Below, piece by piece: positions 1 through 14,255 of a stretch of 64,000 nt of DNA. The translations under genes were made by a program, and so were the position numbers. The notes under the pieces were generated by a model. That model was not told the DNA's origin and made no database searches. It worked only from the letters and a program-made list of their open reading frames with translations. Position 1 is the first letter of the stretch, and each line of letters opens with the position of its first letter. Origin of the DNA: Mrakia gelida (lineage: Eukaryota > Basidiomycota > Tremellomycetes > Cystofilobasidiales > Mrakiaceae); NCBI GenBank assembly GCA_024345305.1, contig BRON01000002.1, forward strand, positions 1 to 64,000. The letters are read 5' to 3'.

Positions 1-2878
1 CTTGATCAAGGAAGCGGCTGATGCGATGGCTCCCTTGGCTGCGTCGGCGATAGCGGTGAGGGAGATGAAGCGGTTGTAGGAGAGGAGAGGGAGGAGGTGG
101 CCTTCGACTGGGTCGTGAAGAGGTTGGATGGAGACGACGGGTCCAGCAGCGGCAATGGCGTGGGAGATGGGATAGCGAGTAGCTCGAAGGACGACGAAGG
201 GTGTGACTTGAGCTCCGTTGGGGTGAGCTGTGACGAGTTCGAAGAGCGGCGAGTCGAGACTGAGAAAGAAGAAAGAAAGAGGTGAGCGACGCGTTTCGAA
301 CCCCAAAGCGATCAAGACAACCGACTTACCCTCTCGACACTGGCACTGCTCCAACCTCAGCTTCATCCAACTCCCTAACCTCTCCCCATCCAATCTCGTC
401 CAGCACTAGGCGGTAGACGACGAGTCGAACGAAGAACTCGCAGGACGCGAGCTGAGGTCCGAACGATCCGATCTCCCGAAAGCCTCCTCCGGCGGCGAGG
501 GAAAGGCAGATTAGGAACTGATCTAGGACCATCTGGCCCCGAGGAGGAGTGGATGAGTATCGAGGGGAGTAGATCGCAAGGAGGAACTGGAGAAGGGCGT
601 CCTGAACCTCCTTCGACTCCTCGACTCCTCCTCTTCCTTCTCCTCCGAAGACCCCGTTCGGCTGGGTGAGGACGTCCCTCTGGAGGATCTGACGGAGGGT
701 GTTGGCTGCGAGTACCATCCGCTCGGTGGTGTGCAAGGAGGGAAGGTCGATGGAGGTGGAGAAGGAGGAGGAGGAAGGAGGAGGGGAGATGATGGGAGGA
801 GGTGCGAGCTCGCCCTGAGGGATGGGGATGGGGTTTCGGTAGACCGTTGGCGTGACCCTGAGGGCGAAGAGGATGAGCGAGCTTGCGTCCCTGCTGTATC
901 GTTTGAGGGTCGAATCCGCAAGCCGCGGCTTGAAGATCCTCGTCGGTCCCTTCCCTCCTCGCTCTTCCTCGACCATGTCCTCCGAGATCTGCACCGACCC
1001 GTCCCCCATCCCGATCTTCCTCGCCACAGCGAACTCGCTCGGGTTCGTCCCGTACTTCCGAACCCCTAAGGCGAGATCCTGAACGTGGACCCAGACGTTT
1101 CGCAGAGGGTCGCGGTCTTCGATTCGAGTCTTGTCCGAGGATCGGTAGTTGTGGGCGGGGGAGATGGCTGAGCGAAGGATGGCGAGAGGGTAGGGTCGGA
1201 TGAAGGAGCCGTAGCCGAGAGGGTTCTGGTAGACTGGTTGATGGTAGAGGGAATTGTCGAGCTTGTCGCTGGGGATGGGAAGGGAGGAGAGTATCTCGTT
1301 CTGCTGCTTGAGAAGGAAGGCTGCTGATGCCGAGAGGGGATCCGATCGTGGGACCTTGGGAGGGGGAGGAGGAACAAAGTTGGTGGAGTCGTGGGAGGGA
1401 GGAGGAACGGCGAAGGCGGGGAGGTGAGCGTCGGGGAAGAGCCGTTGGAAGTAGGCGGGAGTGGGAGCGAGGTTCGTTCCTCCGTGCCTCTTGTGACGGT
1501 GGCTTCGGAGGGAGTCGCCATCCTTGTAGACAGCTCCACAGCTCCCACACCCTATTCCTGACCTCACAGCGAGTCCCTCGACCATAGGGAAGGTCGAGCC
1601 TGAACTCGTCGAGAGGAGGAGGCCGATCGCGTCTTGGTTGTTGGCGAGGGAAGCGTAGTCGGAGGTGTCGAGAGAGGAAGAGAGGTTGAGGAGGCGGGTG
1701 GCATCTCGGGTGAGAGTCTTCCGCTGGGAGGAGGAGAGGGACGGAGTGTGGAGTGCAAGATGGTGTCCGATGCGAGAGGGACGAACACCTCCTCCGTGAG
1801 AGTCCTCGTGGGTTGAGATGACGAGGCCGATGCGAGTGTTAACAGCAAGAGAGGCGATATTGAGAGCAGGAGTGGCTGAGAGGAGGAAGAGGAGAAAGGT
1901 CAGGGTCAGGAAGGAAGGGGGAGAGCAAGGAGGAGGGAGGAGAAGAAGAACGAACTGGCGAGATGAGGTAGCTTCCAGAACGCGTCTCGAACGAAAGATC
2001 CTCCGATCGTGAGTCCCCTGAGGCTGTTGTTCCCAGCCCTGTCGTCTCTAGGAACCAATGCTGTTGAGCCTGATGGAGGGAAGAAGGGTTTGAGGATCAG
2101 CACGAGTCCATACTCTCAAGCGAGAGAGCAAACGAGAGTGACGGAACAGAACGCGAGAAACTCACCATTGTCCGAAGAGACCTCGCCCTCGACTCCATCC
2201 ATCCCACATGCAGCACCAACCCCTCCACCTTCCGAAGGGTTCCCATCCTCCCCACCACCACCCTCTCTCCCACCAACAACCACGCGGTCCTTCCCCTTCC
2301 TCGTCCCACTCAAGCTCAACCCACTCGCACTCCCTCCAACTCCCTCGCCACCACCTCGCTCGGTCTCTCCCTCTCCCTCCCCTATGTCCATCCCAGAACC
2401 AAACCCTTCCCCATCCCCTAGGTGAGCAGGGTAAGCAGGCACCTCCTCCTCCAGCTGATCCTGTGTTGGCGGAGGGGTAGTGTCGGGTTGGGGAGAAGGA
2501 GATGAAGAGTGAACGAGAGGAGAAGGGAAGAGCGGATGCAGAGGTTCAGTCACCGTGCAGGTCTTCCAGTGCTTATGAAACGCATCCGGGGTACGGGAGC
2601 AATGAGGTTCCGAGTGAGGTCGAGGGCAGAAGAACGATCCGTTGCTTCCACGAGGAACTGAGAGGAGAGGGGATGGAAGAACGAGAGGGAGGGAGGAAGA
2701 AATGGGTGTTGAGCTTGAACGAAGCGAACACGGTGATGATGCATGCAAGCGCACCTTTGAGACCTCCAGAAAGACGGACTTCAGCTTGGTGGATATCCTT
2801 CACATGCTGAGTGAGTTTAGCGAGGGTGGAGAAGGGCGAGAGGCCGTGGCAGATAGCTCTCGGGCACGGGAAGCTCAT
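1..2878 (-). CDS. OrsD/RecQ-type telomere-linked helicase-like gene, left copy (3' part outside window)
   Basis: This is the left copy of the array gene. The ATG at 2878 directly follows a splice acceptor, and the first exon encodes a C2H2 finger (MSFPCPRAICH... then HVKDIH). The next exon has a second Cys/His cluster (CPRPHSEPHC, HKHWKTC) and a long G/E-rich linker. The large exon covering 326 to about 1900 contains GIGCGSCGAVYKDGDSL followed by HRHKRHGG, the Cys-Cys-His-His signature of the OrsD (former DUF3505) region that precedes RecQ-like helicases in many basidiomycetes. The helicase exons lie to the left of the window. Compared with the right copy, the differences are mostly single substitutions plus a few residues in the acidic linker. 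Upstream exons beyond 2878 look non-coding. A role in telomere or subtelomere maintenance is known only by family analogy. Confidence 0.75.
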
Positions 2879-4243
2879 CTGCTCAAGCACGAACAAGAGC
2901 AGGCCAATCGAGAGTCAGAACAGAACCAAATGGTGGATGGGTGGTATGGGAGGATTGGTGTATGCAAGAGGGACATACAGTATTGAAGGAAAAGCCTGAG
3001 AGTGCAAGGGGAAGGAGGGAGAGCGAGTGGGGTGAAGGGAAGGACGATGGTCAGCTCGGGCTCGCAACTCCTCCTTCCTTCTTTGTTCCCCCTCCCTTTC
3101 CTCCCCTTCCCAAGGCAAATCACACCTCATCCGACCTTTCCCTACCCCCACCTCCATAGCAGAAAGCAAAAGACTCACTTGAATCCTACGAGAAGGTCTC
3201 TCGAGCGCTCGTTCAGCGAGGGTTCCAAAGGGGAAGGAGGTTTGGCTGAGGTCGCTTTCGAAGGAAGCTCGAGAGGGTGATGAGAGGGGATCGGGTCCGT
3301 TGGATGGATAGGAGTAGAGGAGGAGTGATGAAGAAGTTCCTGGTAGGAAGAGAAGGGGAGGAAAGAGAGTCAGCATCGAGCTTGCTCGTGGAGGAGGGAA
3401 GGGAAGGAGGAGGGCAAGACCGAGTCATGAGCGAGCGAGCGAGCTCCTCCTTCCTTCCTTCCAACGCGAGACCTTCCCAGCATACATCCAGGTTCTCAGT
3501 GGGTTCTATTAACCCCAAATGATGCTCTCCCAACATAGAAGCTGGAGAGAAAGGACTTCCCTCCTTTGCGAGAGGAGGAGGGGTTGAGGAAAGGGAAGCG
3601 ATAAGGGAGCGATAAGGCGAGGGAGCTCACCAAGTCTGCCGTTCGAGCACTGCTCCAGTGGGTCCTTGGGAAGGAGGCTGGTCCCTCGTAGGATCTGACA
3701 AGTTGTTGGTAAGGGGAAGTGGAAATGGAAAGGAAGGTGTCAAGGGAAGAGGTCGATGTCGATGTGGTTGGGGGAGAGAGAGCAGCTCCGCGACTTCTCG
3801 TCGAAGACACGCGATTGACTCGGAGCACGTCCCCTTCGGTCTACGGCTTCGTAGACCGATTTAAGGGAAACCACCCTCCCATCACCCAGGTTGATCCTAG
3901 AGCATCAAAGAGGCAGGAGGTCCAGGAAGAGTGCAGCTGCTGTTGTAGGAGGTAAGCGAGAGAGGAGGGAGAGAGGGGAGGAGGTCGATGTTGAGCTTGA
4001 ACGAACGAGAAGGCCCTTCCATCGACAGGTTCGCTACCGCTGCGCAACGATTCTAGCAGTAAATCGAAATCTGAAAACAGATTAGTCATGTGGCCGGGTA
4101 TAGAGAACACGTTCCTCCTTCGAGCAAGCAACTTTTCTTACCACGAGGCTCAGACTCGCATAGGAAAAAGGAGGAGGAGCTCAGAGGTGAGCTTGAGCTC
4201 ATACCTTTCAACCTCGAGACGTCGGCAAATCTTCACTCTAGAG
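2879..4243 (-). promoter_or_regulatory. 5' leader/intergenic region of left copy, with conserved splice-like blocks
   Basis: No convincing coding exon, but the block is conserved with 9734-11075. In both copies there are matching GT...CTGAC...AG segments on the minus strand. One is a 17-nt exon-like piece at about 2980-2996 between two intron-like segments, with an acceptor immediately before the ATG at 2878. The frame leading into that ATG is closed by a TAG, so these are best read as spliced 5' UTR. A short motif GGCCGGGTATAG lies at about 4091. Confidence 0.4.
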
Positions 4244-7200
4244 CTAAGCCCTCTTTACGGGACATACTAGAGCTATGTACCAACGACTCCAGCCCTTTAC
4301 AATCCGCGGTTTCGGCCTTGAGTATACAGAGAAGCTGAAAGAGAGAGGATGGAGCTCCTCCGAAAAGAACTCGCGGAAGTCAGCTCGAGCTCGCCCTCTC
4401 CTTCGTTTTGAGGTACCTCTCGGGAGAATAGCTGTCGGCGATGCAGCTTTTTTTGTATGGAGCTGTGCTTCTGATACATTTTGCTTCATGGGTAGATCTC
4501 GCTGGTCGTTTTTCCCGTTTGCGATTCGGTGGGGAGGGGAGGGAGAACGAAGCGACGCAAAGTCCGTGGAGTCCGAGGAGGCTGCTGGAACGGTCCGGAC
4601 TCCACGGATCCGTGGAGTCGACTCCACGGAATCGACCGTTCCTGGAGGCAGGAACGGCGCGCATACCGTTAGGAACGTGACTCCAGGACGACGAAGAGGG
4701 AAGTTGAGCTCGGTGAGGGTTGAGTGAAGGAGTGTTCCGGCGTGTCTCCGTGCTCCCTCAGTCCAGCTGCCGGAGAGAAGGAGGAAGGGAGCTCGCGCGA
4801 GTCGAGCGAGGGAGACGTAGCCCATCGACGGCCTCCAATCCGACTGAGTCGCCCAGGTGTGAGCCTCATCCCCGACGAACTGGAGGACCTTCCCTATGGT
4901 GCCGAGGGAAGCGAGGTCCTCTCGAAGCTGCTTGTTGCCTAGCTGCTCGATCGAGATGAGGAGGACACCTCGGAGGCTGACGAGAGGGGTTTCGGGAGGG
5001 AAGGGGTGGGTGTGGACGTCGAGACTGCTGTTCCGACATCGAGCGTGAAGCGTAGCGAGGATGGAGCGGAAGGGTGTTATGAAGACGACGAGACGACCAG
5101 TAGGGTGACTGCGGTCAAGGAGAGCTCGAAGGAGGGAGAGGAAGGTCTTGCCCGACCCAACGGGGCTGCTGAGAAGGTAATCGGTTCCTCCGCGGATGAT
5201 CTTGGCAGCAGCTTCGAGCTGGTTCTCGTAGAGCTCCGCTGATGGGTTGCCGGTCCACTCCCGAAGAAGGCTGGTGATGACGTCCGCTTGGGAGTAGGGA
5301 GGAGGAACGAGGAGAGGGGAGGGTTTGGGAGGAACGCGAGGAGGCGGAGGAGGAGGAGGAGGGGGACTGGATCCGTCGAAGTCGTCCATGTCGTCGTCGA
5401 AGTCGACACCGTCCGTGAGAGCTTGGAGATCGAGAGGAGTCCGGCTTCTTGAGGATACTTCCACCGCACTTGGTGGAAGAATCGAAATCCTCTCCTCCTC
5501 CTCCGAGACTGGATCTCCTCCTCCTCCTGCCGCGTCGTCGCGACTTAGCTCCATCGGCTCGGATCCTTCGTCGTCGTACCCTGAGACTGGAGGAGGGGAG
5601 GGTGGTGCTGGTGTGGGACGTTTGAAGAGAGGTTGGGAGGAAGAGAGAGAAGAGGAGGAGGGACGCTTGGAGGAGAGCTGAAGAGAAGGAGAGGAAGAGA
5701 GACGCGTCAGTCAGGCGAGGGACGTCGCCAGAAGAGAGAAGGGAGGAAGGACTCACCGACGGATGAGAGCTACGCCCAAGAAACAGATCCAGCCTGTCGG
5801 GCAAGCGGTCGATCTTGAGAACCTGCGTAGCGTAGCGGAGGAGGGGGAAGAGGAGGGTTGGTCAGAACGAGGTGTCGCGTGAAGATCGAGAACGAACATG
5901 GAGGCAAAGACTCACAGGATCCACTCCCAACGCGAGTTGGTACAGGCTCACGACCCTCATCGCATTCGTCGCGTCTCCAAAAGCAGCCAAGTCCCGAATC
6001 CCACCACTGGAGTCGGTGTTTCCGTAAGCGGCCTCGTCCGTCTTGAGCGAGTGGCCTCGTTGGCTCGACTGAGTCTCCAGAGCAACGAGGAGTCCGTTAG
6101 TGTCTGATCCGAGGAGAGGAAGGATGATCCGACTGATGAAGACTTCGGCGTGTCGAACCGTTTGGAGCCCGACTCCCGACGACGAGCCTGACAAGACGAA
6201 GGCGAGCTTGAGGTGGGATCTGAGGTCGGCGGCGACGATCTGCTTCCCGACACCGTTCGTCCAAAGGAACGTCCTGAAGGTGGTCTGAACGTCGAGGTTG
6301 TTGTCCAGAGGGCTGAGAGAGTGGAGGAGGGAGAGAAGGTAGAGAGCGAAGGGTTGTACGACTCCGAAGAGCTGGATGACGAGAGGCACGAGGGTCGGCG
6401 ACACGAAGCGATGGATGGTCTTCGTTCCTGTCTTGTTGACCTCCGTACGAACGGCGAGTCGGTTGGAGGTGATGAAGAGAGAGGAGCCGTGGTCGACCGT
6501 TCGGGTGAGCTGCTGAGTAACGAGTTCCGAAGCTCGACCTCCAGGGGAGGAGAGGTGGATGGCGACGAGGAGGTTGAGCTTCGCGGCGGCGAGTGAGTGA
6601 AGGAAGGCTCGGGCGTGAGGAAGGTTGAGCTGGGGTTTGAGAGGATCCGAGGGGTTTGAGATCCAGAGCTTGGAGTTGGAGAGAGAGAGGGAGAGGAGGA
6701 GAGCCTGTTGGTTCCGAGGTATCCCGAGCTTGATGCAGTTCGATGGATCCGTGAAGATCGATCCCCCAACCTCTCCCGCAACTCCTCCGACCGTCACTCC
6801 TTCCATCGTTCGGCCAACTTCTGAGAGGTCCGCCGAGAAGGTGAGGGCCTTGATCAAGGAAGCGGCTGATGCGATGGCTCCCTTGGCTGCGTCGGCGATA
6901 GCGGTGAGGGAGATGAAGCGGTTGTAGGAGAGGAGAGGGAGGAGGTGGCCTTCGACTGGGTCGTGAAGAGGTTGGATGGAGACGACGGGTCCAGCAGCGG
7001 CAATGGCGTGGGAGATGGGATAGCAAGTAGCTCGAAGGACGACGAAGGGTGTGACTTGAGCTCCGTTGGGGTGAGCTGTGACAAGTTCGAAGAGCGGCGA
7101 GTCGAGACTGAGAAAGAAGAAAGAAAGAGGTGAGCGACGCGTTTCGAACCCCAAAGCGATCAAGACAACCGACTTACCCTCTCGACACTGGCACTGCTCC

Positions 7201-9733
7201 AGCCTCAGCTTCATCCAACTCCCTAACCTCTCCCCATCCAATCTCGTCCAGCACTAGGCGGTAGACGACGAGTCGAACGAAGAACTCGCAGGACGCGAGC
7301 TGAGGTCCGAACGATCCGATCTCCCGAAAGCCTCCTCCAGCAGCAAGGGAAAGGCAGATTAGGAACTGATCTAGGACCATCTGGCCCCGAGGAGGAGTGG
7401 ATGAGTATCGAGGGGAGTAGATCGCAAGGAGGAACTGGAGAAGGGCGTCCTGAACCTCCTTCGACTCCTCGACTCCTCCTCTTCCTTCTCCTCCGAAGAC
7501 CCCGTTCGGCTGGGTGAGGACGTCCCTCTGGAGGATCTGACGGAGGGTGTTGGCTGCGAGTACCATCCGCTCGGTGGTGTGCAAGGAGGGAAGGTCGATG
7601 GAGGTGGAGAAGGAGGAGGAGGAAGGAGGAGGGGAGATGATGGGAGGAGGTGCGAGCTCGCCCTGAGGGATGGGGATGGGGTTTCGGTAGACCGTTGGCG
7701 TGACCCTGAGGGCAAAGAGGATGAGCGAGCTTGAATCCCTGCTGTATCGTTTGAGGGTCGAATCCGCGAGCCGCGGCTTGAAGATCCTCGTCGGTCCCTT
7801 CCCTCCTCGCTCTTCCTCGACCATGTCCTCCGAGATCTGCACCGACCCGTCCCCCATCCCGATCTTCCTCGCCACAGCAAACTCGCTCGGATTCGTCCCG
7901 TACTTCCGAACTCCTAAGGCGAGATCCTGAACGTGGACCCAGACGTTTCGCAGAGGGTCGCGGTCTTCGATTCGAGTCTTGTCCGAGGATCGGTAGTTGT
8001 GGGCGGGGGAGATGGCTGAGCGGAGGACGGCGAGAGGGTAGGGTCGGATGAAGGAGCCGTAGCCGAGAGGGTTCTGGTAGACTGGTTGATGGTAGAGGGA
8101 ATTGTCGAGCTTGTCGCTGGGGATGGGAAGGGAGGAGAGTATCTCGTTCTGCTGCTTGAGAAGGAAGGCTGCTGATGCCGAGAGGGGATCCGATCGTGGG
8201 ACCTTGGGAGGGGGAGGAGGAACAAAGTTGGTGGAGTCGTGGGAGGGAGGAGGAACGGCGAAGGCGGGGAGGTGAGCGTCGGGGAAGAGCCGTTGGAAGT
8301 AGGCGGGAGTGGGAGCGAGGTTTGTTCCTCCGTGCCTCTTGTGACGGTGGCTTCGGAGGGAGTCGCTATCCTTGTAGACAGCTCCACAGCTCCCACACCC
8401 TATTCCTGACCTCACAGCGAGTCCCTCGACCATAGGGAAGGTCGAGCCTGAACTCGTCGAGAGGAGGAGGCCGATCGCGTCTTGGTTGTTGGCGAGGGAA
8501 GCGTAGTCGGAGGTGTCGAGAGAGGAAGAGAGGTTGAGGAGGTGGGTGGCATCTCGGGTGAGAGTCTTCCGCTGGGAGGAGGAGAGGGACGGAGTGTGGA
8601 GTGAAAGATGGTGTCCGATGCGAGAGGGACGAACACCTCCTCCGTGGGAGTCCTCGTGGGTTGAGATGACGAGGCCGATGCGAGTGTTGACAGCGAGAGA
8701 GGCGATATTGAGAGCGGGAGTGGCTGAAAGGAGGAAGAGGAGAAAGGTCAGGGTCGGGAAGGAAGGGGGAGAGCAAGGAGGAGGGAGGAGAAGAAGAACG
8801 AACTGGCGAGATGAGGTAGCTTCCAGAACGCGTCTCGAACGAAAGATCCTCCGATCGTGAGTCCCCTGAGGCTGTTGTTCCCAGCCCCGTCATCTCTAGG
8901 AACCGATGCTGTTGAGCCTGATGGAGGGAAGAAGGGTTTGAGGATCAGCACGAGTCCATACTCTCGAGCGAGAGAGCAAACGAGAGTGACGGAACAGGAC
9001 GCAAGAGACTCACCATCGTCCGAAGAGACCTCGCCCTCAACTCCATCCATCCCGCATGCAGCACCAACCCCTCCGCCTTCCGAAAGGTTCCCATCCTCCC
9101 CACCACCACCCTCTCTCCCATCAGCAACCTTGCGGTCCTTCCCCTTCCTCGTCCCACTCAAGCTCAACCCACTCGCACTCCCTGCCATTCCCTCGCCACC
9201 GCCTCGCTCGGTCTCTTCCTCTCCCTCCCCCTCGTCCATCCCAAAACCAAACCCTTCCCCATCCCCTAGGTGAGCGTTCTCCTCCTCCTCCTGTTGATCC
9301 TGTGTTGGCGGAGGGGGAGCGTCGGGTTGGGGAAAGGGAGAGGGAGAGTGAAGGAGGGGAGAAGGGAAGAGCGGATGGTGAGGTTCGGTGACCGTGCAGG
9401 TCTTCCAGTGTTTGTGTAGGGCGAAGGGCTTGGAGCATCGGTGGGGGTGTGAGTGAGGTCGAGGGCAGGTTAGAGAACCATCGTCTCCGCGAAGAACTGA
9501 GAGGGGAGGTCGGGAGAGAGAGAGAGAGGAAGGAGAGAGGAAGGGAAAGAGATGAGCTTCGTGCTTTGCTTGGTGGGAAGCGAGATGTAGGCAGAAAGGG
9601 AGAACTCACCTCGGAAACCTCCAGCAAGAAGCACTTCGGCTTGGTGCCAATCTTTGGTGTGTTGATTGAGCTGAGATCGAGAGGAGAACGGTGGTAGAGT
9701 GGTACACAACCACTTCGGGCAGGAGAGGCTCAT
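4244..9733 (-). CDS. OrsD zinc-finger plus RecQ-like DEAD helicase (telomere-linked helicase-like), right copy, helicase truncated after motif III
   Basis: This is the complete array gene, roughly 1,600 residues in about eight exons. The N-terminus (ATG at 9733) has a C2H2 finger, then a second Cys/His cluster, a G/E-rich linker and the OrsD-type CGSCGAVYKDSDSL/HRHKRH finger in the 7174-8433 exon. The long exon at 5930-7104 is in frame after the intron at about 7105-7173. The last exon (about 4244-5690) has an acidic and poly-proline lead and then a helicase lobe: YENQLEAAAKI (Q-motif-like), SPVGSGKT (motif I, near 5160-5144), FITPFRS (Ia), VGDEAHTW (DEAH, motif II, near 4870-4859) and LLSGSWT (motif III). 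Motifs IV-VI are absent: homology to a helicase ends near 4678, and a 145-residue tail encoded by the next unit's leader and cassette runs to a stop at 4244. Frames join cleanly at the introns I checked, so the gene may be expressed. ATPase-only or non-functional helicase activity is inferred. Confidence 0.75.
4563..4657. repeat. Palindromic junction cassette, left copy
   Basis: Four 11-bp arms alternate in orientation: TCCGTGGAGTC at 4563-4573, a 24-bp spacer, then GACTCCACGGA at 4598-4608, its reverse complement at 4609-4619, and the direct word again at 4620-4630. Two overlapping perfect 22-bp palindromes result (4598-4619 and 4609-4630). Five bases later comes a hairpin with stem CCGTTCC (4636-4642), loop TGGAGGCA and stem GGAACGG (4651-4657). 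The spacer contains another GGAACGG that could pair with the same CCGTTCC. The cassette lies about 20 bp from the point where unit homology ends, at the 3' end of the full-length helicase gene. Confidence 0.95.
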
Positions 9734-11075
9734 CTGCTCGAGCACTAACGAGAGAAGGCCAATCGAGAGTCAGAACTGAGCGGAGTGGTGGGTGGATGGT
9801 ATGGGAAGATTGGTGTAGGCGAGAGGAACATACGTGATCGAAGAAAGAACCTGAGAGGGAAGGGGGAAGGAGGGAGAGCGAGTGAGGTGAAGGGAAGAAC
9901 GATGGTCAGCTCGAGCTCGCAACTCCTCCTTCCTTCTTCGTTCCCTCTCCCTTCCCTCCTTTTCCAAAGGCAGGTCACACTTCATCTGACCTTCCCCTAC
10001 CCCCACCTCCATAGCAGAAAGCGAAAGGCTCACTTGAATCCTACAAGAAGGTCTCTCGAGTGCTCGTTCAGCGAGGGTTCCAAAGGGGAAGGAGGGTTGG
10101 CTGAGGTCGCTTTCAAAGGAAGCTCGAGAGGGTTGTGCGAGTGGATCGGGTCCGTTGGATGGATAGGAGTAGAGGAGGAGTGATGGAGAAGTTCCTGGTA
10201 GGGAGAGAAGGGGAGGAAAGAGGGTCAGTATCGAGCTCGTTCATGGAGGAGCGGAAGACCGAGTCAGGAGCAAGGAAGCTCCTCTCTCCTTCCTTCGAAC
10301 GAGAGACCTTCCCAGCATGCATGCACCTTCTCAGTGGGTTCTGATCACCCCAGAGGATGTTCTCCCAGCATAGAAGCTCGAGAGAAAGGAGTTCCCTCCT
10401 TTGCGAGAGGAGAAGGGGGTTGGTTGGGGAAAGGGCGATAAGGGAGCGATGAGGCGAGGGAGCTCACCAAGTCTGCCGTTCAAGCACTGCTCCAGTGGGT
10501 CCTTGGGAAGGAGGCTGGTCCCTCGTAGGATCTGACAAGTTGTTGGTAAGGGGAAGTGAGAAATGGAAAGGAAGGTGTCAAGGGAAGAGGTCAATGTCGA
10601 TGTGGTTGGGGGAGAGAGCAGCTCCGCGACTTCTCGTCAAAGACACGCGATTGACCCGGAGCTCGTCCCCTTCGGTCCACGGCTTTGTAGATCCACCAAT
10701 TTATGAAACCACCCTCCCATCACCCAGGTTGATCCTAGAGTATCAAAGAGGCAGGAGGTCCAGGAAGAGTGCAGCTGCTGTTGTAGGAGGTAAGCGAGAG
10801 AGGAGGGAGAGAGGGGAGGAGATCGATGTTGAGCTTGAACGAACGAGAAGGCCCTTCCATCGACAGGTTCGCTGCCGCTGCGCAACGACTCTAGCAGTAA
10901 CTCAAAATCTGAAAACAGATTAGTCAGGAGGCCGGGTATAGAGAACGCGTTCCCCCTTCGAGCGAGCAAATTTTCTTACCACGAGGCTCAGACTCGCATA
11001 GGAGAAAGGAGGAGGAGCTGGGAGGTGAGCTTGGGCTCATACGTTTCAACCTCGAGACGTCGGCAAATCTTCACT
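9734..11075 (-). promoter_or_regulatory. 5' leader/intergenic region of right copy
   Basis: Conserved with 2879-4243. It repeats the same splice-like blocks, including a 17-nt exon-like piece at about 9832-9848 and an acceptor directly before the ATG at 9733. It also carries the GGCCGGGTATAG motif near 10930. No open reading frame here looks coding. Divergence from the left copy is clearly higher than in the exons, which suggests that coding sequence is under constraint or that conversion tracts favour it. Confidence 0.4.
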
Positions 11076-11518
11076 CTAAAGGTAAGCCCTCTTTACCAGA
11101 CATACTAGAGCCACCCCTCGACGACTCCAGCTGTTTACATTCCCTGATTTCGGCCTTGAATATACAGGGCAGCTGAAAGAGAGAGGATGGAGCTCCTCCG
11201 AAAAGAACTCGCGGAAGTCAGCTCGAGCTCGCCCTCTCCTTCGTTTTGAGGTACCTCTCGGGAGAATCACTGTCGACGATGCAGATCTTCTCGTACGGAG
11301 CCGTGCTTCTGATACATTGTACTTCATGGGTAGATCTCGCTGGTCGTCTTTCCCGTTTGCGATTCGGTGGGAAGGGGAGGGAGAACGAACGGGCGCAAGT
11401 TGCGTATCCCTCCAAAAGGGCTGCTGGAACGGTCGAGGGATACGCATGCGTATCCCGAGGGATACGCAGAGGCCCGTTCCTGCCTCCAGGAACGGGGCGC
11501 ATACGGTTAGGAAGCGTG
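11076..11518 (-). pseudogene. Orphan copy of the helicase C-terminal tail at the right edge of the array
   Basis: An open frame on the minus strand (stop at 11076) encodes the same tail as the end of the full gene (shared RIANGK, GTSKRRRGRARADFREFF and ARFLTVCAPFL versus TFLTVCAPFL). There is no helicase lobe to its right: homology ends near 11518 and unrelated sequence follows. It is either a remnant of a lost third unit or simply the leader sequence that happens to be open. The part over the cassette is translated into different residues in the two copies, so this stretch is unlikely to be selected as protein. Confidence 0.5.
11401..11495. repeat. Palindromic junction cassette, right copy, with different arm words
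   Basis: The geometry is identical to the left cassette at a constant offset of 6838. Arms are TGCGTATCCCT at 11401-11411, then a 24-bp spacer, AGGGATACGCA at 11436-11446, its reverse complement with one mismatch at 11447-11457, and AGGGATACGCA again at 11458-11468. Five bases later the stem CCGTTCC (11474-11480) and stem GGAACGG (11489-11495) enclose the loop TGCCTCCA, the reverse complement of the left copy's loop. The spacer GCTGCTGGAACGGTC is the same in both. Length is preserved exactly; only the arm sequence differs. Confidence 0.95.
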
Positions 11519-12540
11519 CGAGCGCCTCAGTTCGAGCGTTGTGATTTCCGGTTTCTGACTCGCCCAAGGATGGAGAATGGGAGGGAGAAAGCTTTTCGAG
11601 GGTCCTCTCTTTCGAGTGGACGAGGTATGGCTCGATTAAGCCACCAAGGAAAGTTTGCGCTCAGGGAAGATGGATTGATGTCAAAGACGCATAGGTTCTG
11701 TTTGAGAGGAAAGCAGGGTGCTCAGAAGAGCGAAGTGGGAGCAAAAGCGTTGGTTTGTTGCCTCTCCACTGGACGGGTGAAGATTTTCACTCGAGACCCG
11801 TTTCAGATGGTGAGATATCTAGTACAAGGGTTAGTTCGCGGATTGAACTGGTTGAAAAGCTCAAAGGACACGGAGGATTTGCCCGATTCGCTTTGAACGG
11901 ATTCTGAGCACTTGATGAGATCTATACAATCGAGTCCTGCTGGGACGAATTCTAGATCTATACTTGTTTGAGTGCTAGCGACTTGTATGCTAGTAGAACA
12001 TCGAAGGAGAGAGTTGGCGTTCACTTTCAGCTCAATCTGAGCACTTTGGCTCGTTTTCGTTTTCGTTTCCAGTCTCCCTCGTTCGTTCTCGAAGATTTTA
12101 TCTCGCGAGTCTTTTCAGAACGCGAGATCTATGGCTCGGGGCGTCCTCATTTCTGCAGCTTTGCGTCCACGATCAGGTAGAAGTACAAAGCTGCGAACCT
12201 AGCGTTTGAGCTGAACTAGGCCTGTTCTGAGATCTGTGCAACCCGATCCTCTTGAGGTTGGTCGAAAGGCGCCAACCATTCAGTTGGCATTGACATTAGG
12301 GTGGACGTACCCTGATGTACAGAAGTCCCAACAACCGCAACGACGTTGGTTTGTGCTTTGAGGTGGTTTGACCTTCCTTCGGCTCTCTTTTCCTTGCAGC
12401 AGAATGAGTTCGAGTTGAACTCTCTCTCGTCTGAAGGAGTTTGATAGATCAAAGAACGCAGCTTCGGACGCTGCTTGACAGAAGGGGGGGGGGGGTTTAG
12501 GGTTATTCGAACAGATGTGACTCCTCGGGTCTTCCTCTGC
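11519..12540. other. Unassigned sequence to the right of the array
   Basis: I find no exon chain that I can support. The sequence is less GC-rich than the array, contains a repeated GATCTATAC near 11917 and 11953, and has a G-run (about 12 Gs) at 12485-12495 followed by TTTAGGGTTA. It behaves like a buffer zone between the repeated subtelomeric units and degenerate genes. Confidence 0.4.
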
Positions 12541-13675
12541 AGTCTTCTTGTCCTTCCAACGGTCATTGAGAAGCTCACCGGCGCCATCCCATCAGCGTGC
12601 GTCGCGTTCCTTTGTTATCCTTGTTTCAAACGCGTTGTCGCTGAACTCGCCCGTCGAGCCTCGCGAGTGGTCACCAAAGCCGAACGAGGAACGGTCGCGT
12701 CCAACGAATCCGTCATCCAGCTATACGAGATCGGGATCGCCTCTCTCAAGGCTCAACTCGCTGTCATCCAGGTCCCTCTCGCGACGAGACTTGCCGAATC
12801 CGGACAACTACAGCGGTAGCGAGGATGAGCATCAGGAGGAGCTCGAGTCGGAGAAGGAGAGGTTGAGAGAGGTTCAGTCGGAGAGGGCCAAGGTGAGTTG
12901 TTTGCGAGCGGGTTTCAATCGTTCTCTCTTCTCGACCTGACTAGGGCTTTGGTGGTGGTTGATGCAGTCCGAACAAGAGGTCTACCAACTCGAGCTGCGA
13001 CGAACAAAGCTCCAGAGTCAGATTCACGCGATGTGAGCTCCCTTGTCTCCTCTTCTCCCATTCCCCCTTCTCGACGACGCTCCGACTCGATCATCGTTTC
13101 CACCCTAGAAGTCCGAGTTCACCCTCCGAAGACCGGAGGGATGGATGCGCTGAAGGAGGAGGTTTCGAACGTGAAGGTGAGCTCGCATTTGGTCGAGGCT
13201 GAAAGGAATTAGGGTTAGTCCACCGAGCGAGAAGAGTCAGCTGCCGCCATCTCGAAGGACCTCGACTCGGTCTCGACGGATCGAATCTCGTCGAACGAGG
13301 AACTCGCAAGACTTCAGGCTCAAGTCAACGAGCTCATCAAGCTTCGGGAGCAGGATGGGATGTCAGCCAAGGCTCAGTCCTCCTCAGGGCACCATCGCTT
13401 CTCTCCGAGCTCTGATGAGGGAACAAGGCGACCAACCAAGTCGGACGCTTCAAGCTCAGTTCCTCGCCGCCGACTCAGCGAGGAAGCAGGTAACGAGACA
13501 CCCTCATCGCGACCACGGAACCTTCGGACGTCGTTCAGCTAAGGATCTTGATCTTAGTCAGCGAGTAAACTGCTTTGTCAAGCTTCCGAACACGAGGTTG
13601 AGGCTCAGACTCTTGATATCCAAAGTTAACGAGGCGAGAAACAGTCGAAACCGAAAGTCACAACGCTCGAACTGA
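12541..13675 (+). pseudogene. Degenerate coiled-coil protein fragment
   Basis: Several exon-like pieces read as a serine-rich region (SPLSRLNSLSSRSLSRRDLP), an acidic patch (YSGSEDEHQEELESEKERL) and heptad-type coiled coil (EVYQLELRRTKLQSQIHAM; SSNEELARLQAQVNELIKL). These are separated by GTGAG...AG segments as in other genes here. The chain is interrupted by in-frame stops near 13155 and 13630 and by frame changes, and no start or end could be fixed. I do not recognise the parent family; a Golgin- or kinesin-like coiled coil is possible but unproven. Confidence 0.45.
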
Positions 13676-14255
13676 GGAGGGAGAGAAAGACTTGGGTTCC
13701 ACGCTTTTTACAAACGTGACACTTTGAGGTATCCCAGCGCTCAAGAGGGTGAGCGAAGGAGAGGGCTCGGATACTAGTAGAGCATGATCAAATTCGTCTG
13801 TAGGGATGGTGGAGTCCAACAACAGCACCCTCCCTCGTTCGACTTCCCAAGAGTGAGCAGCCCACACGCTTCCCTCTCGCTTCCTTGCTTATCTCTCCAG
13901 CTCGTATGCCTCGAGGTTGACTCGACTCTTCGCTCTGCAGTTCCTCGAACAGCTCAAGACTCGTTCAGCGGAACCTGGAGCAAAGTATCTCAAGAGGTTC
14001 GTCGTCCCCCTCCTGTCACCTCTCCTCCTTCTTCCCTCCCTGGATTTGGGTCGTCAGAGTTCACTTCCTATCTCCAGCCTCCTCACCAACCTTGCTGACC
14101 TCGTCTCGTTATGTTCCCCCTTCAAGCAAAGCCTTTTAACGACTTCTGGGTTGCGGTTCGGGCGAGGGGCGAGAGCGAGAGAGGAGAAGCAAGTGAAGAG
14201 GAGAGGGGTGCGACGACGCGTCGAGCAAGATCCCTCTCTTTCCTTTTGAGGTGAG
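13676..14255 (+). other. Short exon-like remnants of unknown origin
   Basis: Two pieces look coding: FLEQLKTRSAEPGAKYLKR at about 13938-13997 and KPFNDFWVAVRARGESE at about 14130-14180, separated by an intron-like stretch. The surrounding frames contain stops, so this is probably a decayed gene or the tail of the preceding coiled-coil fragment. No function can be proposed. Confidence 0.3.

Follow-up and report, generated by a model that had tools for sequence, protein, structure and literature searches.

Why many fungi keep helicase genes beside their telomeres is, to our knowledge, an old question that is still open. In those parts of the published accounts that were available, such genes are represented in Ustilago maydis by UTASa (RecQ) and UTASb (OrsD) (PMC10532341) and in Agaricus by subtelomeric RecQ genes (PMC7473861). 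Many-copy subtelomeric genes for DEAD/RecQ-like helicases and an OrsD domain (here OrsD-like, the match being below the Pfam cut-off) are, as far as these excerpts go, what the fungal telomere-linked helicase (TLH) repeats, UTASa and UTASb have in common with the locus described here, which lies in the first 64,000 nucleotides of contig BRON01000002.1 of Mrakia gelida (assembly GCA_024345305.1). This stretch, referred to below as the window, lies at the left end of contig C2 in a genome of 34.9 Mb and 25 contigs (contigs are given as C with a number). Two helicase-gene units in it, elements A and B, each carry a cassette of four short arms, and we put at roughly 60% the probability that this cassette is the proximal terminus of a mobile element that attaches to chromosome ends, a claim at the level of anatomy that is drawn from sequence. 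The helicase-gene element seems to have been added repeatedly onto eroded chromosome ends.

Two element ends in the window

A sequence-only reading of the window had drawn attention to the two cassettes, both of which lie on the minus strand. That of element A occupies 4563..4630 (word GACTCCACGGA), with arms at 4563-4573, 4598-4608, 4609-4619 and 4620-4630 that read TCCGTGGAGTC, GACTCCACGGA, TCCGTGGAGTC and GACTCCACGGA; that of element B occupies 11401..11468 (word AGGGATACGCA), with arms at 11401-11411, 11436-11446, 11447-11457 and 11458-11468 that read TGCGTATCCCT, AGGGATACGCA, TGCGTATCCCG and AGGGATACGCA. The four 11-nt arms, their common layout and the 24-nt spacer were found exactly where that reading had placed them, and its statement that a single word makes up each cassette is correct for the first copy, whilst in the second, arm 3 ends in G and matches at 10/11 positions. 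What it missed is that the cassette forms an end of an element, and that the DNA to which this end is joined is unrelated.

Between the cassette of element A and its junction lie a terminal hairpin (4636..4657, minus strand) and an extreme end (4658..4671, minus strand) that reads TAAC-G-GTATGCG-CG outward, the outward strand being the one that runs from the chromosome interior to the contig end. The corresponding features of element B, also on the minus strand, are at 11473..11496 and 11497..11509 (outward TAAC-C-GTATGCG-C..). The true element boundaries are the junctions 4671|4672 and 11509|11510. The cassette does mark the unit boundary, as had been proposed, but the boundary itself is 41 bp beyond it. 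Element A is represented by its proximal 4.67 kb (1..4671, minus strand), its distal part being missing where the contig begins at 1. Element B (4672..11509, minus strand) is truncated distally inside its helicase gene, at the point where element A is joined to it; the flank from 4672 on matches a copy on C18, in which the helicase gene continues uninterrupted. Units 1-4551 and 6849-11389 are 92% identical.

Element ends across the genome

Read outward, the element starts with C|TAAC-x-GTATGC-yyy-CCGTTCC-loop-GGAACG, followed by the arms and then by a 5' region. From 101 pattern matches 69 were kept as element ends, those dropped including chance matches, matches to internal arms and some genuine ends, among them the stub at C1:3231375 and the two-arm variant C1:18618. 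With 69 ends extracted genome-wide, and 62 distinct flanks beyond the boundary, the cassette is not an artefact of two loci. The body is oriented to the nearer contig end in 68/69 cases and 67/69 ends lie within 35 kb of the contig end that they face; C23:131285 and C15:1069032, both distant from contig ends, are the exceptions. The suggestion of a subtelomeric helicase array is supported. A whole-genome pattern search with the terminal 21 nt, allowing at most 1 mismatch, gave 64 matches, against 0 for the same pattern reversed as a control; 61 of the 64 were within 35 kb of a contig end, 1 was on C19 and 2 were clearly internal, namely the same two exceptions. By body class there are 34 helicase-type, 21 short and 14 unclassed ends.

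Many of the flanks come from inside truncated copies of the element itself, and flanks common to several ends look like duplicated ends. The flank of C7:2027442 is, by eye, the coding sequence of a Copia-type retrotransposon, and telomere repeats flank C1:4718, C12:1396572 and C22:241318 (one common flank) as well as C1:3242899. At C1:3231375, C2:3188131, C11:1551668 and C17:6293 stubs of earlier element ends, 11-42 bp long, are followed by a new element. Truncated, telomeric and stub flanks are what would be expected if elements attached time and again to chromosome ends that kept eroding, and the copies have one precise joined end, another end that is variably truncated and a fixed orientation. 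At C5:2052379 and C16:1238782 ends with different words lie at the same nucleotide of the helicase gene, which may reflect either a hotspot or an exchanged end.

The junction

Thirty-nine distinct junctions have a homologous flank among the sequences compared; 35 were used and four set aside (two telomeric, one self-match on C20, and C2:3188173). In all 35 usable junctions, two of which rest on 26-nt matches to element ends, the homologous target copy has C at the join, followed by T in 20/35. Amongst non-telomeric flanks (n=60), 97% end in C and 92% have C or T as the penultimate base. The A at +2 that is predicted from CTAA is not enriched (9%), and thus YYC|T seems to describe the rule better than extended pairing alone would. 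At telomeric joins the sequence is TTAGGGC|TAAC, and TTAGGGCTAGGG variants, which occur at the C3 left end, could be the source of the C in these.

The base x and the triplet yyy close to the junction vary between copies. They were compared in 44/69 elements, 12 being too short and 13 lost to a text filter that also excluded CCTGCG forms. In 19 pairs of elements with different flanks and bodies at least 99.5% identical (7 differences in 12,578 bp), x or yyy differ in 13, and the loop and arms of the same pairs show 4 differences over 1,824 positions, every one of them due to a single element; the pairs overlap, coming from few groups of copies, and so are not independent events. Either every joining renews x and yyy, or the end module is old and remains at its chromosome end while recombination replaces the body. 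The end module CCG/CGT/TGCTAGCA is found with two different words, and this reuse favours, in part, replacement of the body by recombination.

The distal end

The opposite end of the element can be followed in a short copy without the helicase gene, C1:4775-8786 (L059; 4012 bp), in which the cassette is succeeded by the 5' region, next by a block of tandem repeats of ~330 bp and then by a C-poor tail, the final >400 nt being almost C-free on the outward strand. TTAGGG arrays occur at 12 of 20 contig ends examined and all 12 start inside the C-free tail, at element positions from 3780 to at least 4012; at these ends the most distal known element end is 3.1-5.4 kb (nine ends) or 11.4-11.6 kb (three) inward. 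No telomere was found at the other 8 of the 20 contig ends, nor at either C2 end. The right ends of C4, C9 and C18 match the ~330-bp tandem repeats in several registers. Positions 1-160 of the non-telomeric C1 left end (L093) read like DNA of phage lambda, which we take to be perhaps a sequencing spike-in that stayed in the assembly.

A segment R of 284 bp, which on the minus strand lies at 10828..11111 in element B and at 3990..4291 in element A, is part of the 5' region and has a second occurrence downstream of the helicase gene, seen in copies L056, L058 and L063. Recombination between the two R segments would yield the short class that lacks the helicase gene.

Folding and covariation of the arms

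As outward DNA both copies fold into three hairpins, formed by the terminal hairpin, arms 3-4 and arms 1-2. The z-scores of the minus-strand DNA fold are -6.3 (first copy) and -5.7 (second), those of the plus-strand RNA fold -3.9 and -5.8, and each beats all 200 dinucleotide shuffles; as plus-strand RNA the first copy gives three hairpins and the second favours a nested fold. A scan of window positions 1-14000 against Rfam (E<=1) gave no ribozyme or hammerhead, and only sub-threshold miRNA/snoRNA noise.

The core is present in 67/69 ends and takes 24 distinct forms with seven words. Two-arm variants without the central 22-bp palindrome are found at C17:6272, C1:18618 and C13:1347906, and pairs were counted on the 23 four-arm forms, the two-arm core C17:6272 being excluded. 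Ten of the 23 have four identical 11-mers and 13 have an arm that is off by 1-3 bases. With the three-hairpin pairing 96.9% of 667 cells are paired and 135/667 are changed on both sides, and the paired fraction, the number of double-change cells and the covariation score were each reached by 0/500 shuffles, a significance that is overstated because the sequences are related. When partners are slid by one column pairing falls to 49% or 35%. Arms 1-2 are paired in 253/253 cells. A wobble-type change on one side is seen in one cell only, and this agrees better with a constraint at the level of DNA, or with conversion, than with an RNA helix.

The claim that the arms change together is upheld by this covariation over seven words genome-wide, and there is support for the alternatives offered to account for it, selection on the fold and/or a mobile element. 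The further claim that point mutation cannot do this is not supported: words one base apart in all four arms exist (GAGGGTACGCA/GAGGGTCCGCA and, except for an end base, AGGGATACGCA/AGGGATACGGA), as do mismatched arms and a mosaic, C3:2329718 (the same as C10:6892), whose arms 1-2 carry word 4 and whose arms 3-4 carry word 5. The arms thus drift and recombine to a degree. Independent drift, which the sequence-only reading had named as evidence to the contrary, is present in part, but pairing is kept, most strictly between arms 1 and 2.

The helicase gene

In element B the helicase gene extends over 4672..8723 on the minus strand, pointing outward, and comprises an OrsD-like region, a conserved central region and DEAD/ResIII. 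Four exons were placed by hand (8723-7178, 7107-5916, 5822-5757 and 5677-4672), the first exons being further upstream, and these are open for 1269 codons with no stop up to the junction. Domain matches in Pfam are to DEAD (E 8.1e-6) and ResIII, and the match to OrsD (PF12013; E 6.7e-4, 20.5 bits) is below the cut-off of 26.6. Among solved structures, helicase Q5 matched weakly (E 0.26). Like other telomere-linked helicases the gene is subtelomeric; among the matches listed there are at least 33 near-complete copies of exon 2 with 93-100% identity, of which at least 2 have a stop and one (C15:1073470) is clearly internal. The ratio of nonsynonymous to synonymous substitution was 0.08 in a single exon-2 comparison and 0.14-0.70 in ten exon-1 comparisons, four more being without synonymous change. 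A divergent relic of exon 2 (C3:2252600-2254100, L113; 59-73% identity), some 88 kb from the end, keeps the central conserved motifs.

A Pfam search of a 1272-aa element protein, a query that ended short of the C-terminal part and began after the first exons, found no reverse transcriptase and no integrase. There was no HUH motif of the usual type in the exons read and no Pfam match to one, and the single HTH, at residue 1156, is inside the helicase region. Exons 1 and 2 had no match in PHROGs or NCBIfam, exon 2 had none by sequence in PDB, and no homologues were found at E<=1 in a protein collection, nor in viral contigs. There was no match to the Starship captain family PF11917, the positive controls of which were silent too. 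The N terminus is zinc-finger-like by weak matches. Elsewhere in the genome there are 20 places with RVT_1 (e.g. C10:13161, C15:1255165 and C18:26126), of which 14/20 are no more than 50 kb away from a contig end, some in one orientation and some in the other. Of two that were examined, that on C23 (L123) is of the long terminal repeat type with RNase H and the other is a lone RVT_1 match, neither being shown to be a LINE or Penelope reverse transcriptase.

By eye exon 2 has motifs, R..EL, RH and GHS..Y, that resemble those of a tyrosine recombinase, and the last two are kept in the relic L113. However, there was no match to PF00589, HH scores against 10 E. coli recombinases (17.6-17.9) were below the maximum of 200 shuffles (19.6), and a position-specific scoring matrix of the boxes was equalled by 1637 of 5000 shuffles (its first version by 603 of 1000). 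A search for relatives of XerD yielded close XerD proteins only. With no statistical test in support of the likeness, the identity is not claimed. An AlphaFold2 (AF2) model made without an alignment had a pLDDT of 33.7.

How the elements may attach

The sharp end, the outward bodies, the unrelated, truncated and stub flanks, the C rule, the C-free tail and the covariation together point to an element that attaches to chromosome ends. A number of observations weigh against this reading. Two ends are distant from contig ends and one points away from the nearer end. The set-aside junction C2:3188173, a 43-nt, 84% match to the hairpin, continues with T and is a possible C-less exception. Ends and bodies are mosaic, and much of the spread could be due to recombination and not to new joining. 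In the covariation analysis the number of pairs with a double change was reached by 204/500 shuffles and that of further pair types by 500/500, some forms have mismatches between arms 3 and 4 (93.7% of cells paired), and nested pairing scores 96.4%, nearly as high as the three hairpins, so that the total does not separate the two pairings. Lastly, no enzyme for joining was identified in the Pfam, PHROGs, NCBIfam or HUH-motif checks.

As to how such an element might work, the most far-reaching idea, which we hold to be less likely than not, is a DNA-only (non-retro) end-capping transposon, in which the OrsD-helicase would join a folded single-stranded end to YYC|T 3' ends of broken chromosomes and telomerase would then grow TTAGGG on the C-free tail. 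On our main reading, a chromosome end that has lost its cap would be worn back to a YYC|T site, or nicked at one, on the strand that ends 3', and the 5' end of the element strand (TAAC...) would then be joined to the target C. The three tandem hairpins on the element strand may mark or hold the end for the joining enzyme, for which the element's own OrsD-helicase protein is the first candidate; if so, the sequence of the arms would be free and only their pairing constrained, as is proposed. The outer C-free tail would offer telomerase many start points, and repeated erosion and re-capping would lead to head-to-tail arrays and short stubs. Copies without the gene would be carried by those that have it, whilst words would change by mutation, after which recombination, with pairing under selection, would carry them from arm to arm and from copy to copy.

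Rather unlikely, in our estimation, is the proposal that no joining enzyme is involved and that end joining, or break-induced replication from other subtelomeres, produced the arrangement, the boundary being a fragile hairpin breakpoint. Bodies at least 99.8% identical on different ends, mosaic arms and modules, and short shared bases at joins are all as such repair would leave them, and the same repair is documented for MoTeR ends in the portion of that study that was available (PMC7367193). Pure recombination accounts for the identical bodies but it does not account for one boundary, at 69 ends, with 62 flanks, and break-induced replication templated by a donor would not halt at the donor's own junction.

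It is also unlikely that the ends were made by RNA copying in the manner of Terminons or HeT-A, with an antisense RNA (...fold-CGCAUAC-x-GUUAG-3') primed by a chromosomal 3' C (or CT) and reverse transcribed outward. This would explain a precise template 3' end together with distal truncation, and the C, often CT, at the primer, and the fold adjoins the template 3' end as it does in the available description of Terminons (PMC6431247). However, the helicase gene is antisense to the RNA required, the element protein as far as read contains no reverse transcriptase, the genome has the 20 RVT_1 places of which the two examined are one LTR-type with RNase H and one lone match, the excess of double-change over wobble-type cells (135 to 1) is unlike typical RNA helices, and pairing stops before the A at +2.

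That the arms are four protein-binding sites, whose words shift together as the specificity of the protein shifts, is improbable: near-identical 11-mers in fixed geometry and the zinc-finger-like N terminus are in its favour, but the mosaic C3:2329718 keeps pairing within each hairpin though its words differ between hairpins, and arms 1-2 are paired without exception. Least probable is the templated mechanism of the sequence-only reading, in which hairpin-primed self-copying rewrites all arms of a cassette from one, since words that change by single-base steps, mismatched arms in 13/23 forms and a mosaic breakpoint between arms all speak against it, even though in C5:8727, C3:2306458 and C10:1570670 the word continues into the spacer, as slippage or hairpin copying would give.

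Comparison with known systems

The HeT-A, TART and TAHRE elements of Drosophila attach to chromosome ends and form erosion arrays, are based on reverse transcriptase and replace telomerase; end attachment and erosion arrays are found here as well, but TTAGGG repeats remain at the tip. In IS200/IS605 elements, Helitron ends and integron attC sites single-strand ends are recognised through a hairpin, the stem sequence being free and the cleavage motif short and conserved. The folded end, the free stem and the short conserved motif are common to these and the present element, in which, however, no HUH or integrase relative was recognised.

With the Terminons, Athena-type Penelope-like elements of rotifer telomeres, the element shares a fold by the attaching end and distally truncated head-to-tail arrays, according to the sections of that work available (PMC6431247). 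The same sections give Terminons a reverse transcriptase, a hammerhead fold and repeats complementary to the G strand (PMC6431247), whereas here a reverse transcriptase was not found, a hammerhead was not found by Rfam in window positions 1-14000 and the gene is in the opposite orientation. Truncated telomeric copies and the seeding of telomeres at truncation points are common to MoTeR and FoTeR, as they appear in partial accounts (PMC7367193, PMC12857005); these carry reverse transcriptase and, on the same partial accounts, sit in telomere repeats, whereas the present element is joined mostly to other DNA with a terminal C.

No description of a folded end of a TLH element was found in the literature searched, chiefly by titles and first lines of abstracts, which covered few subscription papers. 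Compared with TLH and UTAS elements, in so far as the available excerpts describe them, a folded proximal end, the YYC|T rule, a C-free telomere-bearing tail and arrays of stubs are seen only here, and an OrsD-like region and a helicase are combined in one gene model, unlike the excerpted UTASa and UTASb. In M. gelida the helicase gene is carried by a unit whose attachment end is defined, folds and covaries, whose junctions follow a rule and whose tail bears telomeres. The proposal is that the helicase belongs to an element which, having no reverse transcriptase of its own, either repairs lost chromosome ends or takes advantage of them. If DNA-only capping were true, each joining event would have left its scar in the hypervariable x and yyy, and the telomere-linked helicases of fungi would be the genes of end-capping elements.

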